Positions 18,858 to 37,628 of a DNA stretch of 59,939 nucleotides are shown here, piece after piece; positions within the stretch are counted from its first letter, which is position 1, and the number at the start of each line of letters is the position of its first letter. The notes below the pieces were generated by a model. That model worked only from the letters and a program-made list of their open reading frames with translations. It had not been told where the DNA came from and did not search any database. The translations under genes and the position numbers were made by a program. The DNA comes from Faecalibacillus intestinalis (GTDB lineage: Bacteria > Bacillota_I > Bacilli_A > Erysipelotrichales > Coprobacillaceae), in contig NZ_PYLQ01000016.1 of assembly GCF_003024685.1 (NCBI RefSeq), forward strand, positions 1 to 59,939, read 5' to 3'.

Positions 18858-20558
18858 TTATTTTTCTTTTACAAGTTTACTTCCTGAGTTGAAACCAATC
18901 ATTAATCCTAATGCAACAAGTAAGATTGCGACTACTAATTGTAAACCATCAACCATTAAGACAAATCCACCAGTTACAAATAATTTCATAACGATTCCAT
19001 AGATAGCTTGTACTAACGCTGTCATTGTAACGATAAACATTAATACCATTGGGATATATAACATAAATCCTTTTCTTCCAGTAACTTTTAAGAAAACAGC
19101 TAATGAAATTAAAACCATTGCAGCTAATAATTGGTTAGCTGATCCAAATAATGGCCAAATATTAACATATCCACCTAAACTTAATAAATATCCACAAACT
19201 AAAGAAATAATTGTTGAAACGTATTTATTAGTTAAAACTTTAACTAAACCACTTGGTTCTTGTCCTTCTTCTACTTCAAAGAATTCTTGGAAAGACATTC
19301 TTGAAATTCTTGCAACAGCATCTAATGAAGTTAAAGCAAGAGCTGAAACAAACATTGTCATAATACATAATCCCCAAGATTGAGGTAAACCAAGTTGAGC
19401 AACTAAACCAGTAACACCAGCTGAGAATTTAGTAAATGGTGTTGCTGTATCAGCTAAAGCCATATTAGCAAGTGTACTATCTAAGACACCCGATGCTTTT
19501 AAGTTTGGTAAAGCACCAACAATAACGATAACTAAGATAGCAAGTAATGATTCAAGTAACATAGAACCATAACCAACTTGTAACATATCTTTTTCGTTTT
19601 CTACTAATTTTGAACTTGTTTCAGATGAGACAAGTGAATGGAAACCAGAAACAGCACCACAAGCAATTGTAACAAATAATGTTGGGAAGATATAACTTCC
19701 TGAAGCAGATTTAAATCCTACAAAAGCAGGTGTTGTAATTGTTGGATTGCTTACAAACACACCAATTACAGCAGCAACGATCATTCCGATAAATAAGAAT
19801 GTTGTTAAATAATCACGTGGTGTTTTAAGTAACCACATAGGTGTAACTGAAGCAAAGAAAATATATACAAAGACAACATAAATCCAAGTTGTTTTAGTAG
19901 CATATACTGGAAACATAATTCCAAGTGCTAACATAGCAATAATTAAAGCAATACCAAGAATCACTTTTGGTAAACCTTCTAGTTTAACTTTTTTCAAGAA
20001 TAAACCAAAGGCCATTGCTACAAAGACATATAAAATTGAAATTGAAGCAGCACTTGCATTTGGAGCAAGTTTAGCCCCATCAGCACTAATTCCATTAAAT
20101 GTTCCTGCAACCATATCAGCGAAAGCTGCAATAACAATTAATGTGAAAATCCAACAAAATAAGAAAAATAATTTTTTACCTTTACGTCCAATATATTTTT
20201 CAATGATTTGTCCCATTGATTTCCCTTCTGTTTTAACAGAAGCATAAAGTGCGCCAAAATCTTGTACAGCACCAAAGAATACACCACCAACGATAACCCA
20301 TAAAAAAGCTGGTAGCCAACCAAACATCATTGCCATAACTGGTCCAGTAACAGGTCCAGCTCCTGCAATTGATGAGAATTGATGAGCAAAGACTGACCAT
20401 TTGTTTGTAGGTACAAAGTCTGTCCCATCTTCTTTTGCAACAGCAGGTGTTGTTGCTTTTGGATCAATTCCCCATGTTTTAACTAAGTAACGACCATAGA
20501 ATAAATAAGCCACTACTAAAATTAAAGCACTTAATCCAAGTAATAGTAAACCATTCAT
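18858..20558 (-). CDS. cstA: CstA-family (carbon starvation/pyruvate or peptide) transporter
   Basis: The 566-residue integral membrane protein has many hydrophobic helices. It carries the CstA signatures HQFSSIAGAGPVTGP near residue 60 and VSGFHSLVSSETSSKL near the middle. Family members import pyruvate or peptides; the exact substrate here is unknown. I start at the ATG preceded by GAGGGGG 8 nt away; 11 extra codons upstream lack a site. The gene is monocistronic behind a T-box leader (20596-20857), which would couple its expression to charging of one tRNA. Confidence 0.88.
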   Translation of the reverse strand: MNGLLLLGLSALILVVAYLFYGRYLVKTWGIDPKATTPAVAKEDGTDFVPTNKWSVFAHQFSSIAGAGPVTGPVMAMMFGWLPAFLWVIVGGVFFGAVQDFGALYASVKTEGKSMGQIIEKYIGRKGKKLFFLFCWIFTLIVIAAFADMVAGTFNGISADGAKLAPNASAASISILYVFVAMAFGLFLKKVKLEGLPKVILGIALIIAMLALGIMFPVYATKTTWIYVVFVYIFFASVTPMWLLKTPRDYLTTFLFIGMIVAAVIGVFVSNPTITTPAFVGFKSASGSYIFPTLFVTIACGAVSGFHSLVSSETSSKLVENEKDMLQVGYGSMLLESLLAILVIVIVGALPNLKASGVLDSTLANMALADTATPFTKFSAGVTGLVAQLGLPQSWGLCIMTMFVSALALTSLDAVARISRMSFQEFFEVEEGQEPSGLVKVLTNKYVSTIISLVCGYLLSLGGYVNIWPLFGSANQLLAAMVLISLAVFLKVTGRKGFMLYIPMVLMFIVTMTALVQAIYGIVMKLFVTGGFVLMVDGLQLVVAILLVALGLMIGFNSGSKLVKEK

Positions 20559-20595
20559 AAATGAATCCCCCTCTTTTAAATCAATCATCACATAT

Positions 20596-20857
20596 AAAAA
20601 GGTTTTCGCTTAACTTTACGCTAAGACGAAAACCTTGTTCCGCGGTACCACTTAGATTGCGATATTTAATCGCCCCTTCACATCTTTTTATAATGCTATT
20701 CCTTTAACGCAGAAATTACGATTCCCCTACTTTTATTTCAAGAAAATAGCTCACAAGTGATGGTCTTATATCATTACCTACATTCTTTCCACCAACCGAA
20801 TGTTCTCTATAGGAAGCGGATGTAAAATCGTATCTTGTTCATCGCTCATTTATATGT
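20596..20857 (-). promoter_or_regulatory. T-box riboswitch leader of the cstA-like gene
   Basis: On the minus strand the conserved T-box AAGUGGUACCGCGG lies at 20640-20653 and is followed by a strong terminator (20596-20636; stem AAGGTTTTCG/CGAAAACCTT plus T5). Upstream is a Stem I with a GAUGA/GAG kink-turn, the helix ACAAG/CUUGU, an AG-bulge region and the CGGUUGGUGGAA loop. My fold puts the specifier at minus-strand AUC (20759-20761), followed by A, CUUGU and GAG, meaning isoleucine; ACC (Thr) three bases earlier is the alternative. UGGU in the T-box expects a tRNA with discriminator A. Confidence 0.9.
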
Positions 20858-31046: not shown

Positions 31047-31076
31047 ATAAAAAGAGAAGATTTAATAATCTCCTCT
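31047..31076 (-). terminator. Terminator of the his operon
   Basis: A 9- to 10-bp stem with G-U pairs (AGAGGAGATT/AATCTTCTCT) and a T run overlaps the hisIE stop codon. Confidence 0.8.
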
Positions 31077-31700
31077 TGTATGAAATTCTTTTTTGTTTCC
31101 AGTTACTTGATGTCTTTCTTTAAGTTTATTTTGAATATCTTCTAAACTGACACCTCGATCATTCATTAAAACAAAAGTGTGGAATAATAAATCAGATATT
31201 TCTCCAACCAATTCTTCCTTATTATCATTTTTTGCTGCAATAATTGTTTCGCTTGCCTCTTCACCCACTTTTTTACAAATCTTATCAACCCCTTCATTCA
31301 ATAAGTAATTTGTATAAGATTTTTCAACTGGATGAATTTTACGATCAGCAATTGTTTTTTCCAATTCTCTAAAAATATCTCTTGCATCATAAGCTTGTAC
31401 TTCATTAAAGAAGCATGAATAAGCCCCAGTATGACAAGCCACTCCTGTTTGTTTGACATAAATCAATAAAGTATCTAAATCACAATCTAAATACATTCCT
31501 TTAATATCTTGAAAATGTCCTGATTCTTCTCCTTTATGCCATAACTTTTGTCTGCTTCTTGAATAAAAAACAGTTTGTTTAAGTTCTAACATTTTATCAT
31601 AAGCTTCTTCATTGACATAAGCTAACATTAATACTTCTTTTGTTTGATAATCTTGGACAATTGCTGGAATTAATTCCATTTTATTAAAATCTGGTCTCAT
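31062..31700 (-). CDS. hisI: Phosphoribosyl-AMP cyclohydrolase / phosphoribosyl-ATP pyrophosphatase
   Basis: Bifunctional HisIE catalysing steps two and three of histidine synthesis. Residues 1-110 are the cyclohydrolase with the zinc ligands in DCDLDTLL and VACHTGAYSCF. Residues 115-212 are the all-helical pyrophosphatase with KKVGEEASETIIAAK. The 212-residue length is typical for the fusion. Its ATG overlaps the hisF stop codon (TAATG). It is the last gene of the operon. Confidence 0.96.
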   Translation of the reverse strand: MRPDFNKMELIPAIVQDYQTKEVLMLAYVNEEAYDKMLELKQTVFYSRSRQKLWHKGEESGHFQDIKGMYLDCDLDTLLIYVKQTGVACHTGAYSCFFNEVQAYDARDIFRELEKTIADRKIHPVEKSYTNYLLNEGVDKICKKVGEEASETIIAAKNDNKEELVGEISDLLFHTFVLMNDRGVSLEDIQNKLKERHQVTGNKKEFHTRGDY

Positions 31701-32467
31701 TATCTTGTTCTCCTTACATTTATACCATGTTTTTTACATTCATTTCTTACATCTTCAACAGTTGCTTCATTAAAATGGAAAAGTGAAGCTACTAAAGCTG
31801 CATCTACATTTGTCTTTTCAAAAACATCAATAATATCTTGAATGCTTCCACAACCTCCTGAAGCAATAACTGGAATATCAACAGCCTTACAAACAGCATT
31901 AAGCATTTCAATATCATAACCCGCTTTAGTTCCGTCAGCATCCATCGAAGTAAGCAATACTTCTCCAGCACCTAAACTTTCGCATTTTTTTACCCATTCA
32001 ATTAAATCTAAACCTGTATTTTCTCTTCCACCTTTAACGTAGACATCCCATCCACTTTGATCTTCTCTTTTTTTGGCATCAATAGCAATTACTACACATT
32101 GAACCCCAAATTCATCAGCTGCTTCTTTAATTAGTTGAGGATTAACAATTGCTGCAGAATTAACAGAAACTTTATCAGCACCTGAGGCAAGAATCATTCT
32201 AAAATCATCTAATGTTCTAATTCCACCTCCTACTGCTAGAGGAATTGTTAGTTCTGAAGCCCCGCGTTCAATAATATCTTTCATAATGCCTCTATCTTCA
32301 TAAGAAGCTGTAATATCCAAAAAGACAACTTCATCTGCACATTGTACGTCATATTTTTTAGCAAGTTCAATAGGGTCTCCAACATCTTTTAACCCAACAA
32401 AATTAACTCCTTTAACCACTTTCCCATCTTTGATATCCAAACAAGGAATTATACGTTTTGTAAGCAT
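31700..32467 (-). CDS. hisF: Imidazole glycerol phosphate synthase, cyclase subunit
   Basis: A 255-residue TIM barrel that uses ammonia from HisH to close the imidazole ring, giving imidazole glycerol phosphate and AICAR. Motifs: [16 protein letters not shown] with the catalytic Asp11, GGGIRTLDD, the AIDAKK strand with the second catalytic Asp, and ASGGCGS. It overlaps hisA by 19 nt and is followed by hisIE. Confidence 0.97.
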
Positions 32468-33174
32468 TTGATTGTCTCCTTTAAATCAATTTTCTTTTCA
32501 TAATAAGCTTTTCCAACGATACATGCATAATAATCTTTTTGAGCAACTTTTTGAATATTATCAAAATCTTTAATTCCTCCAGAAACAACAAATTGAATTT
32601 GACTGTTTTTAGCGATTTCATCATACATTTCAAAATTAGGTCCTGTCAAAGTTCCATCTTTAGAAATATCTGTTGCTACAATATAACCAACACCAATAGA
32701 TTCCAAATATTGAATAAATTCAATATAAGGCATTTGACTTGTTTCTAACCATCCTGCTGTAGAAACAAAACCATTTTTAACATCTACACCGACAACTATT
32801 TTCTCACTGCCATATTGTCTTAATGCTTCTTTTAAAAATTCGGGGTCTTTTAAAGCTGCAGTTCCTAAAATAACACGATCAATTCCTACTTTATCTAAAT
32901 AGAGTTGAACTGTTTTCAAATCACGGATTCCTCCACCAAGTTCTATTTTCATTTTTGTGCTATTTCTAATTTTTTTAATCGTTTCTAAATTTTTAGCAAA
33001 ACCATCTTTAGCGCCATCTAAATCTACAACATGTAAATAAATAGCTCCTGCTTTTTCAAAAGTTTGAGCAAGTTCTTCTGGATGATCACTATAAACCGTT
33101 TTTTGATTATAATCTCCTTTAAATAAACGTACTGCTTGTCCATCTTTTAAATCTATTGCTGGAATAACTAACAT
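32449..33174 (-). CDS. hisA: ProFAR isomerase (HisA)
   Basis: A 241-residue TIM barrel that opens the ribose of ProFAR to PRFAR. It has [20 protein letters not shown] with the catalytic Asp8, [31 protein letters not shown] with the second Asp, and VSGGIKD. It overlaps hisH by 7 nt upstream and hisF by 19 nt downstream, so translation is coupled. Confidence 0.97.
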
Positions 33175-33776
33175 TCGACCATCTCCTTAAACGCAAGTAA
33201 TATTTTATGCCCAACCATTCCTGATTTTTCAGGATGAAATTGGCACCCAATGACATTTTTATTTTGCACTAAAGCTGTAACTTTAGTAGTTCCATAATCT
33301 GTATACGCTACAAGATTTTCATCTTTACAATGTGCCATATATGAATGTACAAAATAAGCATCATCATTTTCATGTACATATTTCAAAATTGGTTGATGAT
33401 TTGTTATATGTAATTGATTCCATCCCATATGAGGAATCTTTTCATCAATATCCATATAACGTACTGAACCTGGAATAAATCCTAGTCCTTTTGTTTCTTT
33501 TACTTCATACCCTTTTTCAAATAAAATTTGCATTCCTAAACAAATCCCAAGAATAGGAATTCCTGCCTCTTTTCGCTCTGTTAAAATATCAACTAAATGA
33601 TACTTTTCTAAATTCTTCATCGCAGTAGGAAAAGTTCCTACTCCAGGTAAAACAATTCCCTTAGCTTCTTTAATAACTTTTTCATCTCTAGAAACAACAG
33701 CTTCAAGTCCAATTCTTTTAAAAGCACCGACAACACTTTTTAAATTTCCTACATTGTAATCAATAATAACAATCAT
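33168..33776 (-). CDS. hisH: Imidazole glycerol phosphate synthase, glutaminase subunit
   Basis: A 202-residue class I glutamine amidotransferase. Motifs: DYNVGNLKS at the start, LPGVGTFPTAM, the nucleophile Cys in GICLGMQ, and the His-Glu pair in QFHPEKSG. It supplies ammonia to HisF. The start codon follows the hisB stop directly (TAAATG), with AAGGAG upstream. Confidence 0.97.
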   Translation of the reverse strand: MIVIIDYNVGNLKSVVGAFKRIGLEAVVSRDEKVIKEAKGIVLPGVGTFPTAMKNLEKYHLVDILTERKEAGIPILGICLGMQILFEKGYEVKETKGLGFIPGSVRYMDIDEKIPHMGWNQLHITNHQPILKYVHENDDAYFVHSYMAHCKDENLVAYTDYGTTKVTALVQNKNVIGCQFHPEKSGMVGHKILLAFKEMVEC

Positions 33777-34364
33777 TTATAAAACTCCTTTTGAAGAAAC
33801 AATCTTATCTATATTTTTTTCATCAATGCGTACCGCCTCTTTTAAAGCTCTTCCAAAAGCTTTAAAACATGCTTCGATTACATGATGAACATTATTTCCA
33901 TAAGCCTCATTTAAATGTAATGTTGCATTCATATTGTAAGCAACCGCTCTAAAAAATTCTTCTGTCATTTCACTTTCATAATTTCCTAAATTAACTTTAG
34001 GAATATCTACATTAAAAACAAGGAAACTTCTTCCTGAAATATCTAAATTACATGTTACTAGTGCTTCATCCATAGGAATTGTAAAATGCCCATAACGTGT
34101 AATACCCTTTTTATCACCTAAAGCTTCTAAAATAGTTTTACCTAAAGCAATTCCCATATCTTCAACGCTATGATGACTATCTACTTCTAAATCACCATGA
34201 CAAATCATTTTGATATCCATTTCACTATGGAAAGCTAGCAAAGTCAACATATGATCAAAAAAACCAATCCCTGTTTGAATCTCTGCTTTCCCTGTACCAT
34301 CTAAATTAATTTCTAAACTAATTTGTGTTTCATTTGTATTTCTTTCTAGTTTAGCTTCTCTCAT
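33777..34364 (-). CDS. hisB: Imidazoleglycerol-phosphate dehydratase
   Basis: A 195-residue monofunctional dehydratase, lacking the phosphatase domain of the enterobacterial HisB. Metal-binding motifs: GIGFFDHMLTLLAFHS, DSHHSVEDMGIALG and NNVHHVIEACFKAF. Histidinol phosphatase is therefore provided by the separate PHP protein at 28619-29404. AGGAGG precedes the start; the hisD stop codon is 2 nt away. Confidence 0.97.
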   Translation of the reverse strand: MREAKLERNTNETQISLEINLDGTGKAEIQTGIGFFDHMLTLLAFHSEMDIKMICHGDLEVDSHHSVEDMGIALGKTILEALGDKKGITRYGHFTIPMDEALVTCNLDISGRSFLVFNVDIPKVNLGNYESEMTEEFFRAVAYNMNATLHLNEAYGNNVHHVIEACFKAFGRALKEAVRIDEKNIDKIVSSKGVL

Positions 34365-34366
34365 GA

Positions 34367-35665
34367 TTATTCCTCCTCAAAACGTACAGCAATACTATTT
34401 GCATGAGCATCTAAACCTTCACTTTTTGCGAAAGTTTGAACATCATCTTTAAATGTTTCTAAAACACCTTTGGGATAATAACTATAAGATGAATATTTAA
34501 CGAAATCATAAACACCTAGCGCTGAGTAGAATTTAGCTGTTCCTCCTGTTGGTAAAACATGGTTTGTTCCTGACATATAATCACCTAGAGGTTCTGGTGA
34601 GTATTCTCCAAGGAAAATAGAACCTGCATTTTTAATATAAGGAAGTGTATTGACTGGGTTTTCAACTAAAACTTCTAAATGTTCTGGCGCTAAATAATTA
34701 GATACTTCAAAAGCTTCTTTTAAGTCTTTTACAAGAATTGCTCCTCCATAATTTTGAAGAGATTCTTCAATAATTTCTTTACGTGATAAATAAGCCATTT
34801 GTCTTTTGAGTTCAACATTGACTTTTTCAACAAGTTCTTTACTTGTTGTTACAAGCATTGCACTAGCAAGTTTATCATGTTCTGCTTGTGACATTAAATC
34901 AGCAGCAATATATTTAGGATTTGCATTTTCATCAGCAATTACTAAAACTTCACTTGGTCCTGCTACCATATCAATATCAACAACTCCATAACTTAATTTC
35001 TTTGCAGTAGCAACAAAGATATTTCCTGGACCTACAATTTTATCAACTTTTTCTATTGTTTCCGTTCCATTAGCAATCGCAGCAACCCCTTGTGCTCCCC
35101 CAAATTTATAAATAGTATCTACTCCTGATACTTTAGCAGCTGCGATAATTACAGGATTAACTTTGCCATCTGCTTTAACCGGTGTAATAATGACTAAATC
35201 TTTAACTCCAGAAAGTTTTGCAGGAATGGCATTCATTAAAACCGTTGAAGGATAGGCAGCTGTTCCACCTGGAACATATAAAGCAACTCTTTCAATTGGT
35301 CTTGCCATTTGTCCCATGATCACTCCGTTATCTTTATATAATGACCATGATTTATCAATTTGATTTTTATGGAATTCTGTAATTTGTTGTTTTGTTCTTT
35401 CAAGGATTCTTATGTAATCTTGATCCACTTGTTTTAAAGCTTCTTCTTTTTCTTGATTTGAAACAACGAAATCATTTTCATCTTTAATTTGATAACCATC
35501 AAATTTTCGACAATAGTTGATCAAGGCTTGGTTTCCATTTTTTCTAATATCATTAATAATATCATTTACAGCATTATTAACTTCTATCGAAATTTCTTCT
35601 TTTCGATTATTTAATTTTTGTGCAATCCCTTTTAAATTCCCATCATACTCAATTACTTTAAGCAT
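34367..35665 (-). CDS. hisD: Histidinol dehydrogenase
   Basis: A 432-residue zinc enzyme oxidising histidinol to histidine in two NAD+-dependent steps. Motifs: VPGGTAAYPST, GGAQGVAAIANG, VGPGNIFVATAK, DMVAGPSEVLVIAD, AEHDKLASAML and the catalytic Glu-His in APEHLEVLVE. GGGGGAA precedes the ATG. It overlaps nothing and sits 1 nt after hisG. Confidence 0.97.
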   Translation of the reverse strand: MLKVIEYDGNLKGIAQKLNNRKEEISIEVNNAVNDIINDIRKNGNQALINYCRKFDGYQIKDENDFVVSNQEKEEALKQVDQDYIRILERTKQQITEFHKNQIDKSWSLYKDNGVIMGQMARPIERVALYVPGGTAAYPSTVLMNAIPAKLSGVKDLVIITPVKADGKVNPVIIAAAKVSGVDTIYKFGGAQGVAAIANGTETIEKVDKIVGPGNIFVATAKKLSYGVVDIDMVAGPSEVLVIADENANPKYIAADLMSQAEHDKLASAMLVTTSKELVEKVNVELKRQMAYLSRKEIIEESLQNYGGAILVKDLKEAFEVSNYLAPEHLEVLVENPVNTLPYIKNAGSIFLGEYSPEPLGDYMSGTNHVLPTGGTAKFYSALGVYDFVKYSSYSYYPKGVLETFKDDVQTFAKSEGLDAHANSIAVRFEEE

Positions 35666-35666
35666 C

Positions 35667-36296
35667 TTAATTTCCCCCTATTACTTTTTCTAATTGATTT
35701 ACAATATTCATAATTTCATCCTTCTTAAATTTAAAAGCTACCTTATTAACAATCATTCTTGTTGAAATATCGCTTACTTTTTCAATTACTTCTAGACCAT
35801 TTGCTTTAAGAGTTGAACCTGTTTCCACAAGATCAACAATGGCATCAGAAATACCTGTCACTGGTCCAAGTTCAACTGACCCTTCTAATTTAATAATTTC
35901 CACATCTTCTTGTTTAGAAGCAAAATATTTCTTCGCAACATTTGTATATTTGCTAGCAATCTTTTTACGACGATTAAATACTTTATTTCGATATTCTGGA
36001 TAAGCAGCTACTGCGAAATAACATTTTCCTATTTCCAAATCTAGAAGTTCATAGTAATCTTCAAAATCTACATCATCCAACGTATCCTTTCCTACAAAAC
36101 CAATATCAACAATCCCATGTTCCAAAAATGTAACAACGTCATTGGGTTTACCAAAAATCATTGAAATTCCATCTTTTGTTTCAATTAATAATTCTCGATC
36201 TTTATTAAAAATAGGATCCATATCAAAACCTGCTTCTGCAAGCAGTTTACATACTTGTTTTTCGATTCTTCCTTTAGTAATAGCTATTTTAATCAT
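35667..36296 (-). CDS. hisG: ATP phosphoribosyltransferase, short form
   Basis: The first enzyme of histidine synthesis. The 209-residue short form lacks the regulatory ACT-like domain and needs HisZ. Motifs: [21 protein letters not shown], and [31 protein letters not shown] (PRPP loop). I use the ATG with GAGGGAGAG upstream; 7 extra codons upstream would overlap hisZ. It begins 1 nt after the hisZ stop codon, as expected for a coupled pair. Confidence 0.96.
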
Positions 36297-36297
36297 G

Positions 36298-37263
36298 TTA
36301 CTCTCCCTCTTTTTCAATGGCTTTTAAAATATGATTCATATGAAAGCAGAACCCAACAGCTGTTTTATCAACATTAAATCTAGGAAGCAAATCATCATAA
36401 CGTCCTCCTGATAAAATTGGATTTGCACTTTGATCACTATATCCTTTAATCATAAAGCCTGTATAATATTTCATGGTTGGAACCATTCCTAAATCAAAAA
36501 TAATTCCTTCTTTACTATCTAATGATTCATAAAGATCTTTTAATTCTTGTAATGCCCCTAACAAAACAGAATCTTGACATTTATCCATCATTTGATGAAG
36601 TAAATCAATATTTCCAAAGCATGTTGGTAAAGATAACAGCAATTGATTTAAGCTTTCTTCAAAATCATTTTTTGAAATAAAACGTTTCATTTCACTCATA
36701 TCTCTTAATCTTAAAATATCTTCAAGTTCATTTCTTTGGTTTCCAACTAATTCTAATAAACGATTATAGAATTTAGCAGAACCTAATTCCAAAAGAATAT
36801 TTTTTAAAGAAATTCCTGGTAATGATTCTTGAATCATTGTCATGACTTCCTTATCTCCTTGAAGCCCAGGTTTATTCATTAACTCTACACCACCTTGGAA
36901 AAACTCACTACTTCTTCCTTTATGCATTGTTTCTTTACGATAAACTTTTCCAAAATAACTATAGCGTGCTTCACCTGTATTGGCACTATTGGCATATAAT
37001 CTAGCTAGTGGTATTGTGAAATCTAAACGCATGGCAACGTTTTTACCTTCGTGATTGATATATTGAAACATCTTATCAACAGTAAAACCACAATCTAGTT
37101 TTGTATATAAATCAACATATTCAAATGACGGCATTAATACTTCATTGTATCCATAATTTGAAAAAACATGTCGTAAATGATTTTCAATTTCCCTTAATTT
37201 TTCAACATTGGTAATAATTGCATCTATACTCTCTTCAGGTATTAAATATTTAAACTCTTCCAT
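36298..37263 (-). CDS. hisZ: ATP phosphoribosyltransferase regulatory subunit (HisRS-like)
   Basis: A 321-residue class II synthetase-like protein, catalytically dead as a tRNA ligase, that complexes with short HisG and carries feedback inhibition by histidine. Visible motif-2-like region: [15 protein letters not shown] with YFGKVYRKE, and the C-terminal [14 protein letters not shown]. It lacks the anticodon-binding domain. It is the first structural gene of the operon, 18 nt after the attenuator terminator, with GGGGGAT before the ATG. Confidence 0.93.
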
Positions 37264-37280: not shown

Positions 37281-37374
37281 AAAAAAACGAGTCATCTAAT
37301 GACTCGTTTCAACATCATTAGATACAGCTTAATTGTGATAGACAAAATGGGCTGTATCATAAATGATATAACCC
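37281..37374 (-). promoter_or_regulatory. his attenuator: alternative hairpins A:B, B:C, C:D and terminator
   Basis: In transcript order: A (GGGTTATATCA, 37364-37374) pairs with B (TGATACAGCCC, 37349-37359). The GATACAGC part of B can instead pair with GCTGTATC of C (37321-37328). The ATCTAATGA part of C (37315-37323) pairs with D TCATTAGAT. D is also the 5' arm and loop of the terminator (37281-37309; AAACGAGTCA/TGACTCGTTT plus T7). A begins exactly at the leader peptide stop codon. Stalling on His codons leaves A:B and C:D, giving read-through; completing translation masks A, giving B:C and the terminator. Confidence 0.88.
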
Positions 37375-37424
37375 TACTTTTTCCAATGATGGTGATGTAA
37401 TTGTGTGTTATTTAGTATTTTCAT
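37374..37424 (-). CDS. hisL: his leader peptide (HHHH)
   Basis: A 16-residue ORF, MKILNNTQLHHHHWKK, with four consecutive His codons (CAT CAC CAT CAT) followed by Trp, Lys, Lys and TAG. AAGAGGTGAT lies 6-8 nt before the ATG, so it should be translated. It is too short for ordinary ORF calling. It stands directly upstream of the alternative hairpins and the his operon, as in ribosome-mediated attenuation. The peptide itself needs no function; its codons sense charged tRNA-His. Confidence 0.9.
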   Translation of the reverse strand: MKILNNTQLHHHHWKK

Positions 37425-37448
37425 AGTAATCACCTCTTGTTGTGCTTT

Positions 37449-37471
37449 ATTCTAGCATAGATTGTATACAA
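37449..37471 (-). promoter_or_regulatory. his promoter with TTGTATACAA palindrome
   Basis: An extended -10 (TGCTAGAAT, hexamer at 37449-37454) has no good -35. The perfect 10-bp palindrome TTGTATACAA (37462-37471) fills the spacer, where a repressor or activator would act. The same palindrome recurs at 37570-37579. Confidence 0.5.
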
Positions 37472-37569
37472 AGAAAAGATGATTATGTATTTTTATGAAA
37501 TATTTTATACTTTAAATACTTTATTGTATGCAAATCATAAGTTGTAATTTTTAATTTTTTGATAATTGA

Positions 37570-37628
37570 TTGTATACAATTTTTATCGTGATAAAACACG
37601 TTGTGTAGTATTTTTATTATCACGATAA
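37570..37628. promoter_or_regulatory. Operator-like palindromes upstream of gdhA
   Basis: A second TTGTATACAA (37570-37579) is followed by TTATC-GT-GATAA (37583-37594) and TTATC-AC-GATAA (37617-37628). The two TTATC-N2-GATAA boxes are exact reverse complements with centres 34 bp apart. They lie in the 284-bp gap between hisL and gdhA. No clear -35/-10 for gdhA could be fixed. Confidence 0.5.

Follow-up and report, generated by a model that had tools for sequence, protein, structure and literature searches.

How transcription of the his operon of Faecalibacillus intestinalis is made to respond to histidine is the question raised by a short leader in the window, meaning the whole 59,939 nt stretch of DNA that was analysed (contig NZ_PYLQ01000016.1). 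An earlier note on this DNA had proposed ribosome-mediated attenuation through a leader peptide with a run of His codons, working in the enterobacterial manner. Judged from the sequence of this leader and its relatives, it is very probably a histidine-responsive, ribosome-mediated transcription attenuator of the his operon, as supported by the conserved peptide, His run, spacing, antiterminator and terminator and by covariation at a shared strand.

Location and parts of the leader

The leader lies on the minus strand at 37424-37281, directly 5′ of hisZ, ahead of the entire his operon. The first gene of the regulated operon, hisZ (36298..37263, minus strand), was named on the basis of its translation and of a relation to HisS-like proteins. 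The remaining ORFs of the operon (31062..36317, minus strand) we take to be hisG, hisD, hisB, hisH, hisA, hisF and hisIE, names given from the translations by pathway knowledge and not by family search. On the other side of the leader is a divergent glutamate-dehydrogenase-like gene (37709, plus strand). Searches of the genome with the leader DNA and with a covariance model of the leader returned no further copies. The free energy of the leader was −37.6 kcal/mol versus −20.4 kcal/mol in dinucleotide shuffles (z −5.1, 0/200).

A Shine-Dalgarno sequence (agaggtg, 37431..37437) precedes a short translatable ORF of 16 codons, MKILNNTQLHHHHWKK (37374..37424, with the ATG at 37424 and the stop codon TAG at 37376-37374), which contains four consecutive codons for the amino acid of the pathway, CAT CAC CAT CAT (37386..37397), all on the minus strand. 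Relatives have [ag]aggtg at a roughly equal position and 3–5 His codons, with Arg included in some runs. An intrinsic terminator, ACGAGTCAT-TAG-ATGACTCGT with a T run (37281..37307, minus strand), lies 5′ of the first gene; its stem spans 37307-37287 and the T run continues to 37281, a short distance 5′ of the hisZ ATG at 37263.

The strands designated H, A, B, C1C2, D and E, all on the minus strand, are able to pair as H:C, A:B, B:C1, C2:D (the antiterminator) and D:E (the terminator). Strand H (37382..37391) consists of the last two His codons and TGG A, and pairs with C2 as a proposed anti-antiterminator on the basis of the minimum free energy (MFE) fold, duplex energies and pair counts. 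Strand A (GGGTTATATC, 37365..37374) starts inside the TAG stop codon, as the earlier note had correctly placed its first arm. Strand B (GATACAGCCC, 37349..37358) has either A or C1 as its partner by the pair counts, and C1 (AAGCTGTATC, 37321..37330) also pairs partly with H in many relatives, as indicated by pair counts and duplex energies. Strand C2 (TCTAATGAT, 37314..37322) is the 5′ strand of the antiterminator, and strand D (GTCATTAGA, 37295..37303) is common to antiterminator and terminator.

The hexamer ATTTTG (37343..37348, minus strand) follows immediately 3′ of strand B. It is unpaired, lying outside every proposed helix, and is nearly invariant in 39 genomes of the family, with TTTT in nearly all of them. 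Its role could possibly be that of an RNA polymerase pause element. The NusG motif TTNTTT after the A:B hairpin was considered and set aside, ATTTTG being without an exact match to it.

The palindrome TTGTATACAA occurs beside the leader promoter at 37462-37471 and 37570-37579, and with one mismatch at 37524-37533. All six genomes of the window's genus have it at the his promoter, as do most of Thomasclavelia, there at a different position relative to the −10, and it is absent from the other genera; one-mismatch copies across the window were no more numerous than expected by chance. A repressor operator acting on top of attenuation is a possible reading of this palindrome. The His codon CAC (37394-37392 in the window) is frequent in the leaders, at the third His from the end in 23/38, versus a CAT:CAC ratio of 63:3 in 12 window genes. 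Pairing between the leader Shine-Dalgarno and the His codons was rejected as the reason for CAC, since the real codons were barely above their synonyms (2/38 at P≤0.05).

Conservation of the leader and the distribution of T-boxes

All 43 genomes of the family were searched for HisZ and a true hisZ was found in 40, one of which is cut at a contig end. The leader was present in all 39 genomes with an available hisZ upstream region, including that of the window. The coordinates and parts given by the earlier note, with a 16-codon ORF and four His codons, were right. By named records the family includes Faecalibacillus (HisZ identity 97%), Thomasclavelia, Massilimicrobiota, Longibaculum, Stoquefichus, Sharpea, Kandleria, Eggerthia and Beduini. 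Identity to the HisZ of the window falls as low as 42% within the family, with the leader still recognisable. The His-rich ORF lies approximately 130–150 nt 5′ of hisZ across the 39 genomes, with the exceptions of L007, where an insert places it farther away, and L029, where it is degenerate. The peptide has the core Q-L/F-HHHH(H)-W in most genomes, W being replaced by R or A in some others, and the spacing from the His codons to strand A is kept across the family. In L029 (genome G007) the stop codon is lost and the His run is reduced to HRH, possibly a decaying attenuator. A covariance model of the leader recognized the 39 family genomes at E 2.5e-11 or better, and in the rest of the order (316 genomes in all), the sister family included, it gave nothing convincing (best E 0.008).

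The earlier note had set this leader against the T-box control more frequent at such operons in Firmicutes, and this contrast proved to be sharper than claimed. Of 14 his loci sampled in the sister family, with a distant HisZ (27–31% identity), 13 carry a T-box directly upstream; in the one read closely, L120, the specifier is CAC. The remaining locus, L116, is without a T-box; its His leader, MSNMNILAKGHHHHHT, differs in sequence and is accompanied by a terminator-like hairpin. The genome of the window contains 18 T-boxes above the cut-off, one adjoining a HisS-like gene and none at his. The T-box 5′ of the HisS-like gene (L141, 187-373, minus strand) has the specifier stretch GACAC, readable as GAC (Asp) or CAC (His). 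In the window itself, a T-box at 20619-20851 (minus strand) lies 5′ of a CstA-like membrane protein gene (18858-20591), and its specifier, judged by register, is probably AUC (Ile).

Pair counts and covariation

Pairs were counted in an alignment of the 39 family leader sequences. The proportion of paired cells was 99% for A:B, 95% for C2:D, 97% for D:E and 91% for B:C1, compared with 21–46% in slid versions of the two composite structures. Shuffle controls favoured both composite structures, in a test that is inflated by the kinship of the sequences. Three pairs of D:E showed double changes, and in C2:D a G-C pair is replaced by A-U in three genomes.

Column 137 of the alignment, in strand D, has a partner in the antiterminator (column 111) and another in the terminator (column 150). 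In L036, L037 and L039 its C is changed to U, and both partners carry A instead of G. Because L036 and L037 belong to one genus, this triple covariation represents one or two events, so that the strand shared between antiterminator and terminator has covariation support from few events (L036/L037 and L039). In the comparison of relatives, which the earlier note had suggested, C2:D and the His run were conserved and column 137 covaried with both of its partners.

Predicted folding under different ribosome positions

The ribosome was assumed to extend 13 nt beyond the first base of the A-site codon. With this footprint, a ribosome stalled on any of the His codons leaves strand A free, and one on the stop codon covers it. 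In predicted folds with D exposed, C2:D formed in 23/39 genomes, rising to 30–32/39 when H was masked and 34/39 with the ribosome on the stop codon. The OFF state would therefore depend on release, as the antiterminator is still predicted with a ribosome parked on the stop codon. At equilibrium the full leader was predicted to form the terminator D:E in every ribosome state, and antitermination must for this reason be kinetic.

Of the four pairings that the earlier note had described as excluding one another, A:B is exclusive of B:C1, and C2:D of D:E through the shared strand D. The exclusion does not extend to B:C1 and C2:D, which overlap by 2 nt in the window and by 1 nt (a shared C) in most relatives. 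Constrained folding with the ribosome on the stop codon formed the two together, with 8.8–8.9 bp of B:C1 and 6.3–7.2 bp of C2:D. Mutual exclusion of B:C1 and C2:D is rejected on account of this small overlap and joint predicted formation.

Alternative explanations

Control by a T-box or another tRNA-binding leader could be suggested by the T-boxes at his in the sister family and the 18 in this genome, but the RF00230 covariance model had no match at the his leader and such a reading has almost no probability. Another reading is that the terminator is constitutive, or responds to a signal other than histidine such as a protein or small molecule, with the ORF being incidental. The dominance of D:E in every equilibrium fold would fit this. 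Against it, the His run, Shine-Dalgarno, stop position and antiterminator are conserved in 39 genomes, always 5′ of hisZ, His runs are also seen in leaders of different sequence, both in sister-family locus L116 and in Clostridia-labelled metagenome-assembled genomes (MAGs), and no known Rfam riboswitch matched at the leader. We consider this reading very improbable.

A more serious alternative is the classical order of stems, in which stalling gives A:B and C:D, completion gives B:C and the terminator, and strand H has no role. In its favour, A:B and B:C1 exclude each other and are both conserved, A would be masked by a ribosome on the stop codon, and A:B retains a mismatch where B:C1 retains a pair, as though B:C1 had to be capable of prevailing. 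The same order works in the Clostridia MAG leaders, where B:C and C:D overlap by approximately 7 nt (L068, L070 and L072). In the family itself, however, B:C1 and C2:D share 1–2 nt and are predicted side by side, so that B:C1 does not remove the antiterminator and the classical order is left without an antiterminator-removing step. The statement that completion yields B:C plus the terminator, as made in the earlier note, does not follow when B:C and C:D are compatible. The classical order is therefore rated as unlikely, well above the two preceding readings.

A putative anti-antiterminator formed by the His codons

In the MFE fold of the free leader, CAUCAUUGGA (37391-37382) is paired with UCUAAUGAUG (37322-37313), enclosing A:B. 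This H:C pairing comprises 10–13 bp in most genomes, with the codons that follow the His run (WNT, WIA, WYK, RHT) extending the helix into C1, and is paired in 84% of cells. The mean duplex energy of H:C1C2 was −11.6 kcal/mol, versus −2 to −3 kcal/mol for H with neighbouring loops, and in 32/39 a genome's own strands paired better than strands combined across species. In L006 and L007 a change in C1 from GGUG to GAUG accompanies a codon change from GCC or ACC to GTC or ATC, in a compensatory-like manner.

Other measures were less favourable. H:C covariation in the 39-genome family alignment was not significant, and the pairing was better than its own shuffles at 5% in just 14/39. Real codons paired better than synonymous recodings in 29/38 at P≤0.2 and in 5/38 at P≤0.05. 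The pairing is weak in L032, L033 and L039, and for the window's free RNA with upstream sequence, C2:D was predicted over H:C at the stage when D is exposed. On this evidence H:C is a plausible refinement of the wiring, and the chance that the folded H:C acts as an anti-antiterminator around the A:B hairpin, as a step of the switch, is put at roughly even.

A His leader of another sequence, with HHH, was found in the HisZ-bearing Clostridia-labelled MAGs L068, L070 and L072 and the group members L124–L128. In these a leader segment likewise pairs with C around A:B, as AGGUACA:UGUACCU in most, AUUGUAGG:CCUACGAU in L126, CAUUGUAGG:CCUACAAUG in L128 and GUGCAUC:GAUGUGC in L127. The pairing was better than shuffles at 5% in 7/7, excluding L125, a repeat of L124. 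The predicted folds thus suggest a wiring of H:C around A:B common to the family and the Clostridia MAGs despite their different sequences. It is possible, and slightly less probable than the H:C step itself, that the use of a His-codon segment as switch strand, in an anti-antiterminator enclosing a pause hairpin, has independent origins in Coprobacillaceae-type bacteria and the Clostridia MAGs and represents a Firmicute design of amino-acid attenuator that differs from the enterobacterial design.

HisZ in the window's family is closer to that of the Clostridia MAGs (up to 50% identity) than to that of the sister family (approximately 30%), and in a class-wide sample HisZ of this type was found in the window's family only. 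Both observations suggest, from sequence comparison, that the his operon may have moved between lineages.

Proposed switch

With ample histidyl-tRNA, the ribosome would complete the peptide and leave the leader. Strand H, the His-Trp segment, would then pair with C1C2 around A:B, leaving D free for E, with termination as the outcome. When histidine is scarce, the ribosome would stall at the His codons, covering H and leaving A free. C2 would thereby be open to pair with D before E is transcribed, and polymerase would enter hisZ. The A:B hairpin and the conserved ATTTTG may pause polymerase, giving the ribosome time to load.

Relation to known attenuators

The enterobacterial his attenuator (RF00514, His_leader) is similar in that stalling at His codons selects antiterminator or terminator; its covariance model gave no match at the his leader. 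In the enterobacterial leader the control codons lie within strand A of an A-to-F series, whereas here strand A starts at the stop codon. Of the enterobacterial mechanism claimed earlier, stalling-based attenuation is retained, but the order of stems is likely to be nearer to that of vmlR, as the control-codon segment has, in most genomes, the antiterminator strand as a pairing partner.

The Bacillus subtilis vmlR leader has its uORF within an anti-antiterminator, followed by a pause hairpin and a terminator, and its antiterminator is released when the ribosome stalls (PMC9226507). This is the nearest published topology found, and the H:C fold resembles it by analogy. The vmlR-type pairing of uORF strand with antiterminator strand is strong in most genomes, without significant covariation in the family. 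The vmlR leader differs in sensing antibiotics and in having its hairpins in series, with SL-2 at the antiterminator apex (PMC9226507), whereas in the his leader A:B is enclosed by H:C and an exact TTNTTT motif is lacking. Attenuation by a leader peptide is supported by mutants in the ilv-leu leader of Staphylococcus aureus (PMC5794164), likewise a Firmicute amino-acid operon with a leader peptide and terminator, although its codons are for Leu/Ile and its structure is described differently.

Ashniev et al. (2022; PMC9413887) reported candidate His-leader attenuators in six species of Erysipelotrichales, in Peptostreptococcaceae and Lutispora, and in the Bacillus cereus group. These predictions concern genomes in which his is under neither HisR nor T-box control, and the same source reports finding no RF00514 among Firmicutes. 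As described there, these leaders share with the present one the operon, a peptide with 3–5 His codons, a terminator with antiterminator, and the clade (Eggerthia, Erysipelatoclostridium, Catenibacterium, Coprobacillus and [Clostridium]). The element is therefore ordinary in kind, belonging to a published class of His-leader attenuators, and the surprise that the earlier note attached to such an attenuator in a Firmicute is not upheld. In the passages of its main text considered, that study sets out neither a strand-by-strand mechanism nor covariation, as compared with the 39 genomes and H:C pairing treated here.

Implications

The kind of switch had already been predicted in this clade, and what is added here is the evidence from 39 genomes and an amended wiring. 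Should the H:C pairing prove real, amino-acid attenuators of Firmicutes would have a design in common with leaders that sense antibiotics, such as vmlR. The 39-genome leader-peptide family beside a sister family with T-boxes, both at the same operon, means that two readers of histidyl-tRNA can be compared in close relatives.
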